DNA of 64,000 nt from contig JUEP01000011.1 in NCBI GenBank assembly GCA_000817105.1, forward strand, positions 1-64,000, in the 5' to 3' direction. A model generated the notes under the pieces. It saw only the letters and a list, made by a program, of their open reading frames with translations, made no database searches and was not told the origin of the DNA. The DNA is from a marine actinobacterium MedAcidi-G3 (GTDB taxonomy: Bacteria; Actinomycetota; Acidimicrobiia; Acidimicrobiales; Poriferisodalaceae). The position numbers were made by a program, and so were the translations under genes. Each line of letters starts with the position of its first letter. The stretch's first letter is position 1. Below, one piece after another: positions 44,383 to 58,118 of this stretch.

Positions 44383-46803
44383 CTAGACGGTCTCAATAAC
44401 GTCGTTATCGGAAAGACTGCCACGGATGTCGGTATCTGCCACAGCGGGGATATCTGGACACCAGATCTGCATCGCTTCTTCCAAAGTATTTTTCACAGTA
44501 GAAGCGACGGTGCGAGCGTCTTTCTTATTGCATTCCACTACGACGCTGTCGTGAACAGTTTGCACACCGAATGCACGATCGAATTGATCGAGACGGCTAT
44601 GTAAGAGCCCGTAGGCTTCTAACATGATGTCGGCTACGCCGCCCTGTATAGGTGCGTTGCGGTATGCGTTAGCCATCTGCGAAATCCGACTCTCTAAAGA
44701 CCGGTTCAGTAAGAGCGTTCTGGCTTCTTGACCCATCGTTTGTTCGACTTGTTCGATGATCGCTCGACGAATTTTTCGGTCTTCTAAGATTTTTGTAATT
44801 TCGGCAGAAGAAAGGGACTGCCCCGCATTACGGAGTTCGAGGTTGTGGCGGTCGCTAATTTGTTCTCGAACTAGTCTCGGACCGTCTTTGTTGGATTCAA
44901 TGACTGTTTTGGCTGCTTGCTCTAGGACGCCTTCGGTATGAAAGGTGAACTGTTGGCGTCTTCCTGATTCTGTAAGTGAGTCAAACCCGAAGACTTCGCC
45001 GTTGGTGTCGATTACTACTGATGCCTCGAAGGAAAGGGACCAGGCGACCTCTTCAATGGTCCAAGGTGAGCCTAGACGCGCCAGTACTTCTTCTGCCCCG
45101 GGCCAATTGCGGTGTTCATCGCGGTGTTCGCGAACTGCCCGCCGGACTAATGGCCATGTTCTATGCAAGAGAAGTGTTAGCGACCAGTCAACTTCACCGT
45201 GTGATCGTGTGAATTGGTCCACGAAATCGTCTCGGTGGTTGACCCATGACGCAATCTGTGGATACGCGCTCAGATACTGTTCAAGTAATACACGACCTTC
45301 GTCGTCGTTTGTTTCCACACCTGCCTGAGAGAGACTTCTGGCTAACCCGCCACCCCGTTGGCCATAGACGATTCCGAAGTTGATACGTTTCGCTTTGTCG
45401 CGATATTCGCCAAAAAGTTTGGGTTCCGATTCGCTTAACGAGGTCATGTTCACTCCGAACATCCGTTCAGCGGTCGCTGAATGGATATCCTCGCCAGCGA
45501 TAAACGCTTTTCGCAGATTCTCATCTCCGGCCACTTGAGTAGCGAATCTGAGTTCCGCTTGGCTTAAGTCTGAATAAACGAAAACTCGGTCGGGGTCAGA
45601 TGGTCTAATGTGCTCCTTCATTTTGGGTGAAAAGTTTTGTGCGTTAGGGCGCCGACTTGCTAAGCGACCAGTGTTAGTGCCGACTACTTGGAGGTATTCA
45701 GAGTGCATACGGCCGAAGTCGTCGATGTGTTCTTTTATCGACTCTCCATAGGTTGAGAGGACCTTGGTGAGGTCTCGGTACTCGAGTAAGGACGAACAGA
45801 TAGAGCCGCCAATTTCGGAAAGTACTGCGGCTGTTAAAGGGTCAGTAGGCAGGAGGGAGCGAGCTTCGCCGAACTTGGTCATAGACCAGACTTGGACCTC
45901 TTCGGCGCTCCATTCGTTGAGTGCTTCTTTGGCTTGGCGTTCGCTTCCTGGATTCCAAGAAGGTTCGAGTGTTTCACTGAACAAGGTTGCTTGGCCGCCT
46001 CCAGTTAATCGAGCGAGGTCGCTTGAGACCTGGGTTCGACGCTCCTCCATTTGGTCGAGACGCTCTTCCCAACCAGGCCAGTCAAACGGCAGCCCAACCC
46101 TTTCCATGTGATCTAAGAAGGGACGCGCTGTCTGTTCTAAGCGACACACTTCGGAAAGGCCAGCTTGTTTTATGCGACTTCTGATTTCGTCGGCTACCCA
46201 GAGAGTTTCGACGGCGTCTGCTGCAGCGTATAGAACCTGCTCATTGGAGAGTGGGTCTACCTCGTTATAGGACAACTGAGTCGTCCCTTTGCCTTCGGCG
46301 TTTAACCCGAGGTACCACTCAACTGCCCATGCGAGCCCGTGATAGAAGCTGAATCCGGTTCGACCCTGGTGTAGTAACGCATCGGCAAGTTGAGCATCCC
46401 ACCAAGAGATGGATTGAATGTCATCCCTGGTTTTCTTAGCGGGCTCGAAAAGGTCGCGGTCCAAAACTCGGGCGTCGAAGTCAGCGTTCCAAGCGTCAGC
46501 GCTCGTTCCGCTCAGAATCGAAGCAACCACCGAAGGGTCTAAGGCCTTAATGTCGAGGACCCAGGCTTGTTCTATTTCACTGGAGTTTCTGGTAGCAGCG
46601 GAAATGACTCGCAAAGCACCTGGCTTAGCGTTGGGTCCTACGAATGCCTGTGGCGTGTAAGCAGTTTCGGTATCTATTGCAGTTGAAATGGAGTTGCGGA
46701 TAGCGACTTCAAATGCGTCTAGTGATGTGGGATCTACCAGAGTTACCGGTACGTCCTCGACCTTTCTCGAAGGTCGAGGACGAGGATCGACAGGAGTAGC
46801 CAC
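44383..46803 (-). CDS. Divergent family-A DNA polymerase with 3'-5' exonuclease
   Basis: An 806-residue PolA-type polymerase without the 5'-3' nuclease domain. Residues 20-220 are a DEDDy-type proofreading domain with its acidic residues intact: Asp44/Glu46 (AIDTETA), the NADFDARVL segment near 106, and YAAADAVE near 192. Polymerase motif A is YSDLSQAELR (410-419), motif B is RDKAKRINFGIVYG (468-481), and motif C is VHDSVVVE (750-757), where the usual HDE is HDS. Between motif B and NAPIQGG (716) lie about 235 residues, against about 77 in E. coli Pol I, so roughly 150 residues are inserted around the fingers-palm junction. The start is GTG at 46803, with TAATGT six bases upstream. It may be a repair or translesion enzyme; whether a standard polA exists elsewhere cannot be seen. 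Confidence 0.85.
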   Translation of the reverse strand: MATPVDPRPRPSRKVEDVPVTLVDPTSLDAFEVAIRNSISTAIDTETAYTPQAFVGPNAKPGALRVISAATRNSSEIEQAWVLDIKALDPSVVASILSGTSADAWNADFDARVLDRDLFEPAKKTRDDIQSISWWDAQLADALLHQGRTGFSFYHGLAWAVEWYLGLNAEGKGTTQLSYNEVDPLSNEQVLYAAADAVETLWVADEIRSRIKQAGLSEVCRLEQTARPFLDHMERVGLPFDWPGWEERLDQMEERRTQVSSDLARLTGGGQATLFSETLEPSWNPGSERQAKEALNEWSAEEVQVWSMTKFGEARSLLPTDPLTAAVLSEIGGSICSSLLEYRDLTKVLSTYGESIKEHIDDFGRMHSEYLQVVGTNTGRLASRRPNAQNFSPKMKEHIRPSDPDRVFVYSDLSQAELRFATQVAGDENLRKAFIAGEDIHSATAERMFGVNMTSLSESEPKLFGEYRDKAKRINFGIVYGQRGGGLARSLSQAGVETNDDEGRVLLEQYLSAYPQIASWVNHRDDFVDQFTRSHGEVDWSLTLLLHRTWPLVRRAVREHRDEHRNWPGAEEVLARLGSPWTIEEVAWSLSFEASVVIDTNGEVFGFDSLTESGRRQQFTFHTEGVLEQAAKTVIESNKDGPRLVREQISDRHNLELRNAGQSLSSAEITKILEDRKIRRAIIEQVEQTMGQEARTLLLNRSLESRISQMANAYRNAPIQGGVADIMLEAYGLLHSRLDQFDRAFGVQTVHDSVVVECNKKDARTVASTVKNTLEEAMQIWCPDIPAVADTDIRGSLSDNDVIETV
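46752..46782 (-). repeat. 13-bp perfect hairpin in the first codons of the polymerase gene
   Basis: Arms 46752-46764 and 46770-46782 are exact reverse complements of 13 bases (CGTCCTCGACCTT and its inverse) around a 5-base loop. They cover codons 8-18 of the polymerase. The hairpin starts about 22 bases into the likely leaderless transcript. Confidence 0.7.
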
Positions 46804-56836: not shown

Positions 56837-56908
56837 GTGGAGAGTCTCGCGGTTCCCTGCGGGAAATGCTGAATATCTTTTGGAATAGAACATTTGTTCG
56901 GTACTTGC

Positions 56909-56924
56909 CCGAACAGGTGTTCGG
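56909..56924. promoter_or_regulatory. LexA (SOS) box between recA and the hydratase
   Basis: CCGAAC-AGGT-GTTCGG is a perfect 6-bp inverted repeat with a 4-base centre, matching the actinobacterial/Gram-positive LexA consensus CGAAC-N4-GTTCG. It lies 139 bases upstream of the recA GTG at 57063. TACCTT at 56928-56933 just downstream could be the recA -10. A further GTTCGG at 56896-56901 makes a second, wider inverted repeat with the first arm. Confidence 0.85.
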
Positions 56925-57062
56925 ATGTACCTTGAAGATGTCCGAATGATTTCGGGGTCTGACCCTGAGCATACGGTTTCCACAGACAGGGTTAAGTACC
57001 TGCCCGTCAAACAAACTTGGCTTCTAGCGAAGTCAAAGATACGTCCGAGGAGGACCAGCAGC

Positions 57063-58118
57063 GTGGAACGAGAAAAAGCACTCGATATGGCACTATCGCA
57101 AATTGAGCGTCAGTTTGGTGAGGGCGCTGTCATGAAGATGGGCGAACGAGGCCAAATGAAAGTTGAAGCTGTCTCGACAGGCAGTTTGGCAATTGACATG
57201 GCCCTTGGTATTGGAGGCCTTCCCAGAGGTCGCGTTGTTGAGATTTATGGCCCTGAAGCATCAGGTAAATCTACGTTAGCGATGCATGTCGTGGCAGAAG
57301 CACAGCGCACTGGCGGCATCTGCGCTTATGTGGACGCCGAACATGCGATGGATCCCGATTACGCACAAAATATTGGTGTTGATGTTGACGAGCTACTTAT
57401 TTCTCAGCCCGATACTGGGGAGCAAGCTCTTGAGATTACCGACATGCTCATACGGTCAGGAGCAGTTGATGTGGTGGTGATCGACTCTGTAGCTGCTTTA
57501 ACGCCAAGGGCAGAAATTGAAGGAGAAATGGGCGATACCCATGTTGGTTTACAAGCTCGTCTCATGTCGCAAGCGTTGCGCAAACTGACCGCAAATCTGA
57601 ATAAAACTAAAACCATCGTTATCTTCATCAACCAGCTCAGAGAAAAAATTGGTGTCATGTTTGGTAGTCCTGAAACGACGCCAGGTGGGCGGGCGTTGAA
57701 GTTCTATTCGTCGGTCCGGATGGATATCCGCCGGATTGAGGCGATTAAATCTGACGGTGAAATAACAGGTGGCCGAACGCGCGTCAAAGTCGTTAAGAAC
57801 AAAGTCGCTCCGCCTTTCCGGCAGGCTGAATTTGACATTATGTATGGCAAAGGAATTAGCCGTGAAGGTTCACTCGTTGATGTTGGTGTGGAACAAGGAA
57901 TCGTCAAAAAGTCGGGTGCTTGGTACACCTATGAAGGTGAGCAGCTAGGGCAAGGACGTGAGAACGCCAAACAGTTCTTGACAGACCATCCGGAAGTAAT
58001 GGTTGAGATTGATGGCCGGATCAGGTCCCAGTTGGGTATCGGAGAAGGTGAAGATGAAACCGATGCACTAGATGCTGAGTCTGATGTTGAAGAGGTTCTT
58101 GACTCTGCCGATGACTAG
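57063..58118 (+). CDS. recA: Recombinase RecA
   Basis: RecA forms the ATP-dependent filament for homologous recombination and LexA cleavage. From GTG 57063 it is 351 residues and starts [19 protein letters not shown], as expected. GAGGAGG 9 bases upstream supports that start; the frame is open to 56925, but the extra residues are unconserved. Walker A is GPEASGKST at 63-71, against the usual GPESSGKTT. The [20 protein letters not shown] loop region is intact, and the tail is acidic. The LexA box lies upstream. No recX follows, unlike in most actinobacteria; a monooxygenase takes that place. Confidence 0.97.

Follow-up and report, generated by a model that had tools for sequence, protein, structure and literature searches.

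The marine actinobacterium MedAcidi-G3 encodes, within the 64,000-nucleotide stretch of contig JUEP01000011.1 analysed here (the window), a family-A DNA polymerase that carries about 150 extra residues between motif B and motif C, arranged as two inserts around a conserved GRR hairpin. The 806-residue protein looks catalytically intact from its retained residues, has substitutions at two active-site positions and is encoded in addition to a canonical PolA. The new element is a large, compact and conserved insert at a site different from the known ones, together with the two active-site substitutions; a literature search returned no match for a polymerase of this type. Inserts have given family-A polymerases new activities, including factor docking in T7 polymerase and lesion bypass in the plant organelle polymerases and Pol theta. 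With the family described here, one could readily ask whether a module on the fingers side is able to change the behaviour of a polymerase that proofreads.

Catalytic residues, distribution and the housekeeping PolA

The gene occupies positions 44383-46803 of the minus strand, as do all features of the polymerase given below, and starts with GTG. A Pfam search identified its product as a family-A DNA polymerase (PF00476, 179.8 bits against a cut-off of 34.3, E = 1e-52), with the match split in two by the insert, and detected a 3′-5′ exonuclease domain (PF01612, 32.3 bits against a cut-off of 23.6, E = 1e-7; residues 20-215, 46159-46746). The same search found no 5′ nuclease domain, as the first-pass annotation had proposed. 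The protein scored below the cut-offs both of TIGR00593, the canonical bacterial DNA polymerase I (167.6 bits versus 600; 5′ nuclease absent), and of the PRK14975 equivalog NF011539 (218.6 bits versus 640).

Alignment to E. coli Pol I showed that the six exonuclease residues (D44, E46, N106, D110, Y192 and D196) are all retained and that the DxE, N/D and YxxxD catalytic motifs are present. On the polymerase side, motif A, DLSQAELR (residues 412-419, 45547-45570), includes D412 and the steric-gate residue E417, and motif B, or the O helix, was located by its motif and by the alignment as RDKAKRINFGIVY (residues 468-480, 45364-45402). The earlier reading that the proofreading acidic residues and motifs A and B are kept thus agrees with the alignment. 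Residues R668, D705, E710, R754, K758 and F762 of E. coli Pol I correspond to R380, D412, E417, R468, K472 and F476, and Y766, N845, Q849, H881 and D882 to Y480, N716, Q720, H751 and D752. Two positions are substituted. E883 is replaced with S753, which gives motif C the sequence HDS (residues 751-753, 44545-44553), and R841 is replaced with N712, shortly before the NAPIQGG sequence at the start of the Q helix (residues 716-722, 44638-44658); only the former had been recognized at first. Serine at the E883 position, and hence HDS, was found in every family member whose sequence covers motif C. The whole chain, predicted by AlphaFold2 with 14 homologues (pLDDT 80.9, pTM 0.79), matched Klenow fragment 1kfs with a VIA Z of 29.9 (rmsd 4.4 Å, 556 residues). 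Judging from the retained residues, the protein is an intact-looking and probably catalytically competent, proofreading family-A DNA polymerase.

HDS was correctly noted from the start, but it means less than was then implied, as phage polymerases carry it too, including those of Microbacterium phage Redfield and Bacillus phage Eldridge. In the phage Tt72 polymerase, the equivalent serine-to-alanine mutant has 76% activity, and both aspartates are essential (PMC9324360). By analogy with these enzymes, HDS appears compatible with activity and is no sign of inactivity. Since other family-A enzymes also lack the E883 glutamate, and since this position is dispensable in Tt72 polymerase, S753 does not remove the protein from family A. 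Arg841, the second substituted position, is a residue needed for stabilization of the template strand (PMC9324360). As a separate observation, the Eldridge polymerase ORF has an apparent intein end (VVNHNTSRLAS) immediately before its TGRLAS-type motif.

The insert-bearing polymerase proved to be nearly universal in one family of Acidimicrobiales, an order whose actinobacteria are mostly marine, and patchy in four others. The genomes compared were metagenome bins, and the source assembly itself is 2.1 Mb in size and 88.6% complete. Among 37 genomes of the same family, 35 had the gene over at least 570 residues, one had a 67-residue stretch of it and one had none, while an order-wide sample gave 20 positive genomes of 248, in five families. 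Samples of 296 genomes from the class and 396 from the phylum contained none outside Acidimicrobiales; all matches belonged to the same order, and the named relatives were mostly metagenome bins of Acidimicrobiaceae or Acidimicrobiales.

A search for a second polA, suggested by the first-pass annotation, revealed a canonical 899-residue PolA on another contig of the same genome. Most of the 3′-5′ exonuclease residues are replaced in this housekeeping enzyme (contig C12:97025-98146), as they are in two other aligned actinobacterial PolAs. The insert-bearing polymerase is therefore an extra enzyme beside a housekeeping PolA with a degraded proofreading site. The housekeeping PolA also has Tyr in place of Phe at the F762 position, a replacement that permits dideoxynucleotide use in other Pol I enzymes.

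In a tree of 37 polymerases, another of the checks suggested, the family formed its own clade (100/100), whose stem measured 1.8 changes per column and which grouped with PRK14975-type enzymes, a second actinobacterial paralogue and a cyanobacterial plasmid polymerase at 97/95; phage branches were long and their placement is unsure. The presence of a separate clade on a long stem, beside a full PolA, supports the description of the enzyme as specialized. Another actinobacterial group of stand-alone family-A polymerases, with ORFs of 585-825 residues, HDE and normal motif spacing, formed a clade of its own and falls outside the curated PRK14975 cut-off. The cyanobacterial sequence, from the small Cyanobacterium aponinum plasmid pAL20118a (4467-6680), lies directly after a DnaB-like helicase gene, a pairing that suggests a plasmid replication module.

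Two inserts flanking the GRR hairpin

The distance from motif B to motif C is 278 residues, compared with 116-128 in all measured comparators, which comprised canonical PolA, PRK14975-type enzymes, another actinobacterial paralogue group, the cyanobacterial plasmid polymerase and a phage polymerase. NAPIQGG begins 244 residues from the K of motif B and 234 from the end of the motif, in line with the earlier estimate of about 235, whereas the comparators with both motifs located have 76-87 residues here (about 77 had been quoted for E. coli). A large insertion in a family-A polymerase with HDS had thus been read correctly, as had the excess of roughly 150 residues and the presence of a GRR-Q segment. 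The idea of a single insertion did not hold: the segment, GRRQQF (residues 614-619, 44947-44964), equivalent to the GRRLYLP hairpin of E. coli, lies between two inserts, the first of about 73 and the second of about 76 residues. Insert 1, delimited from motif spacing and an AlphaFold2 prediction of the module alone, covers residues 533-605 approximately (44989-45207). Insert 2, which is helical, covers residues 624-712 approximately (44668-44934) and has conserved K671, R676, R679, R680 and R706.

Forty-three distinct relatives could be aligned with the query, and both inserts were present in those that span the region. The GRR and HDS motifs were essentially invariant across this alignment, and pairwise dN/dS values against three close relatives were 0.04-0.08 for insert 1 and 0.07-0.11 for insert 2, similar to those of the catalytic regions. 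Together, these observations argue that the inserts and HDS are not a chance observation, and the dN/dS values indicate strong purifying selection on the inserts. The first-pass annotation had considered that the insert might be common to actinobacterial exonuclease/polymerase proteins of known function; it was absent from those compared, which also speaks for a specialized enzyme.

The module alone (residues 514-716) was predicted confidently by AlphaFold2, with a pLDDT of 85.7 and a pTM of 0.81, so that the two inserts would pack together into one compact unit, largely of helices, that encloses the GRR hairpin. Its conserved basic residues are R558, R561, K671, R676, R679, R680 and R706, and insert 2 includes a conserved basic LEDR-x-LRR patch; the net charge of insert 1 is -4. 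In one genus (5 loci), insert 1 is extended by a further 20-45 residues between helices 2 and 3.

We considered and rejected an intein, or another insert that removes itself: a splice-junction pattern was not noticed, members from five bacterial families share the conserved insert, and GRR lies in its middle. A viral origin of the insert was rejected likewise: neither scans of viral contigs nor tblastn searches with the insert alone, run on phages and plasmids at E values of up to 1, gave a match.

Resemblance of insert 1 to sigma-70 region 3

Structure prediction and profile searches, which had been recommended for this region, revealed a resemblance between a three-helix segment of insert 1 (residues 545-597 approximately, 45013-45171) and sigma-70 region 3, seen with Pfam, hhalign, VIA and a PDB profile search. 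Like the sigma domain, PF04539 (Sigma70_r3), the segment is predicted to have a long helix followed by two shorter ones, and it shows an R-x-P-[TS]-x-E-E-[IV]-A pattern; unlike it, the segment sits inside a DNA polymerase, and in one genus a long loop separates its second helix from its third. PF04539 was the top Pfam family in nine of ten diverse members, at an approximately constant position, and it also matched two members of the module alignment; the window's own 806-residue protein had no reported match. The best member (E = 2.9e-5, 24.5 bits) remained just under the gathering score of 25.3, which is why standard annotation overlooks the resemblance.

That every Pfam match lies below the curated cut-off favours the alternative that insert 1 converged on a generic three-helix arrangement, a long helix plus a P-[ST]-x-x-E helix, and neither shares ancestry with sigma region 3 nor recognizes DNA. 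Convergence concerns the origin of insert 1 only and is compatible with the other explanations discussed below. The hhalign results speak against it. Against a sigma region-3 profile built from related genomes, the profile of insert 1 reached a probability of 79.6 and a score of 30.9, over an alignment that covers all three helices, and the match was specific to region 3: sigma regions 2 and 4 scored 8-12, the reversed profile 7.8, and 60 column-permuted profiles 10.4 on average and 18.8 at most. The single-template P value of 1.5e-5 becomes about 0.4 if corrected for all Pfam, and hhalign alone is therefore not decisive.

Structural comparisons can be read in both directions. The predicted module gave VIA Z values of 6.4-6.5 against sigma region 3, over 53-74 residues at 2.5-4.6 Å; a Z near 6 can arise from a common helix arrangement. 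Most of the top Foldseek matches of the module prediction were sigma factors, with weak E values from 0.02, the best, to 1, and the PDB profile search returned sigma factors at E = 0.08-2.3, ranked under one designed helical repeat; the weakness of the former and the designed repeat in the latter both favour convergence. The best non-polymerase matches among 2447 ORFs, a set enriched in sigma loci, were ORFs of sigma-factor loci. A sequence search of the 203-residue module against the PDB gave chance-level matches only.

We consider that insert 1 is quite probably sigma-3-like in fold. Homology with sigma-70 region 3 is possible, its chances being just short of even, and convergence is a serious alternative with a chance rather below even. 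As far as our searches show, this would be the first polymerase with an internal sigma-3-like fold, given the predicted structures.

Proposed role and relation to known polymerases

Our preferred reading, for which we see an even chance, is that of an accessory proofreading polymerase acting beside PolA, in which the module provides an extra grip on DNA for gap filling or lesion tolerance on gapped or damaged templates. The helical module of about 150 residues lies between helices P and Q, a position expected to be at the fingers side of the active site, with the predicted sigma-70 region-3-like three-helix fold in its first half and the LEDR-x-LRR patch in its second. From its position in the sequence, it could hold the template or the duplex ahead of the primer end, its contact replacing the template contact of Arg841, and could thereby stabilize the polymerase where the template has gaps or lesions, comparable to the support that plant organellar Pol I draws from its fingers insertion in lesion bypass. 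That the module contributes a new hold on the template or on downstream DNA is the simplest reading because Arg841 is Asn here and the module adjoins this residue in sequence and has conserved basic residues within a protein whose net charge is -38; DNA binding by the module is what these features would imply. An accessory role in damage tolerance, or in repair as the first-pass annotation had suggested, is plausible by analogy, and we favour an accessory, gap-filling and damage-tolerant enzyme because the plant organellar fingers insertion supports bypass with an active exonuclease (PMC7699545). The preferred reading is weakened by the lack of repair neighbours and of an SOS-type box before the gene run, by the acidic charge of insert 1, by the weak Foldseek E values and by the 20-45 additional residues between the would-be HTH helices in one genus. 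In addition, strong proofreading usually opposes lesion bypass.

The gene neighbours do not help in assigning a role. The first-pass annotation had placed the gene in a metabolic run rather than with repair genes, and its neighbours are indeed metabolic, though recA lies about 10 kb away (56925-58118, plus strand). Close relatives share the run (aminotransferases, PhyH, P-type ATPase), with gaps of about 20-25 bases, and the neighbours of distant members include a Glu/Gln-type tRNA synthetase-like gene, SurE, SDR and rhodanese, among others. Repair genes adjoined the polymerase in none of the lineages examined, and the neighbourhoods examined contained no conserved partner gene. SOS control was rejected, as no exact GAAC-N4-GTTC site was present upstream of the gene run and one-mismatch matches were at chance level; a match of this type within the gene, at 45457, is in the chance range (35 found versus 30 expected with one mismatch allowed). 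Two exact GAAC-N4-GTTC palindromes, GAACATTTGTTC and GAACAGGTGTTC, lie 23 bp apart at 56888-56922, directly upstream of recA, and from their sequence are likely to mark a LexA-controlled SOS promoter. Replacement of ImuB was also considered; low-scoring Y-family matches occurred in 3 of the 37 same-family genomes versus 9 of 24 others, and four polymerase-bearing genomes have a Y-family match, so that there is no clean exclusion. A role in defence was discarded, the sole PADLOC match (RTasPolA) being to the shared polymerase core.

The main rival, which we regard as rather unlikely, is that the module docks a protein, such as a helicase, clamp, SSB or RNA polymerase, and that the enzyme is a back-up for gap filling and not for lesion bypass. 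Such docking has a precedent in the T7 polymerase, whose thumb insertion binds its processivity factor (PMC7699545), and it would suit a module that is predicted to fold as an independent unit, a net acidic insert 1 and a gene that nearly all genomes of the family have kept in surroundings unrelated to DNA damage. The conserved charged residues R558, R561, R676 and R679, however, suit DNA at least equally well, and the neighbourhoods examined revealed no conserved partner gene.

We judge it improbable that an ancient replication polymerase from a phage or plasmid was captured by an ancestor of Acidimicrobiales and kept as a spare, with the inserts as lineage-specific structural decoration. PHROG polymerase families do match the protein (phrog_17, 231 bits), HDS occurs in phage polymerases, and the tree joins the family to the cyanobacterial plasmid polymerase and to actinobacterial stand-alone polymerases; nevertheless, the insert was found on none of the phages, plasmids and viral contigs searched, and a mere spare is made less likely by the presence of the gene in nearly all genomes of the family and by the strong purifying selection on the insert. 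Least probable of all is the acquisition of a sigma region-3 domain in the fingers as a second DNA-reading head, which, if real, could engage forks, bubbles, promoter-like DNA or stalled transcription complexes and would tie transcription-type DNA recognition to repair synthesis; a classical HTH reader is less likely in the genus in which 20-45 residues separate the would-be HTH helices.

Returning to the accessory polymerase with an additional DNA grip, we compared it with known systems. PRK14975 (NF011539) enzymes likewise combine a 3′-5′ exonuclease and a polymerase without a 5′ nuclease and are second to PolA in actinobacteria, but they are 582-629 residues long, with a motif B-C spacing of 117-120 (278 here), HDE instead of HDS and no insert. 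E. coli Pol I, or its Klenow fragment, shares the fold and the catalytic residues; it has no insert and features HDE and Arg841 where the present enzyme has HDS and Asn. The phage Tt72 polymerase, a strong proofreader, resembles our protein in having Ser at the E883 position, no 5′ nuclease and an extra fingers helix, but it has Arg at the R841 position, and its extra element is one helix (residues 526-554), not a module of about 150 residues (PMC9324360). AtPOLIA and AtPOLIB are family-A enzymes with a fingers insertion tied to lesion bypass in the presence of an active exonuclease; their insertions 1 and 2 are in the thumb and have sequences reported as unique to POPs, and likeness to sigma region 3 is not among the features given in the available portion of PMC7699545. 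POLQ is also a family-A polymerase with inserts, which in its case give lesion bypass and may or may not be related to those described here; it matched the whole fold with a VIA Z of 27.8 and appeared in the module search at a Foldseek E of 1.0 only, outside the convincing matches.
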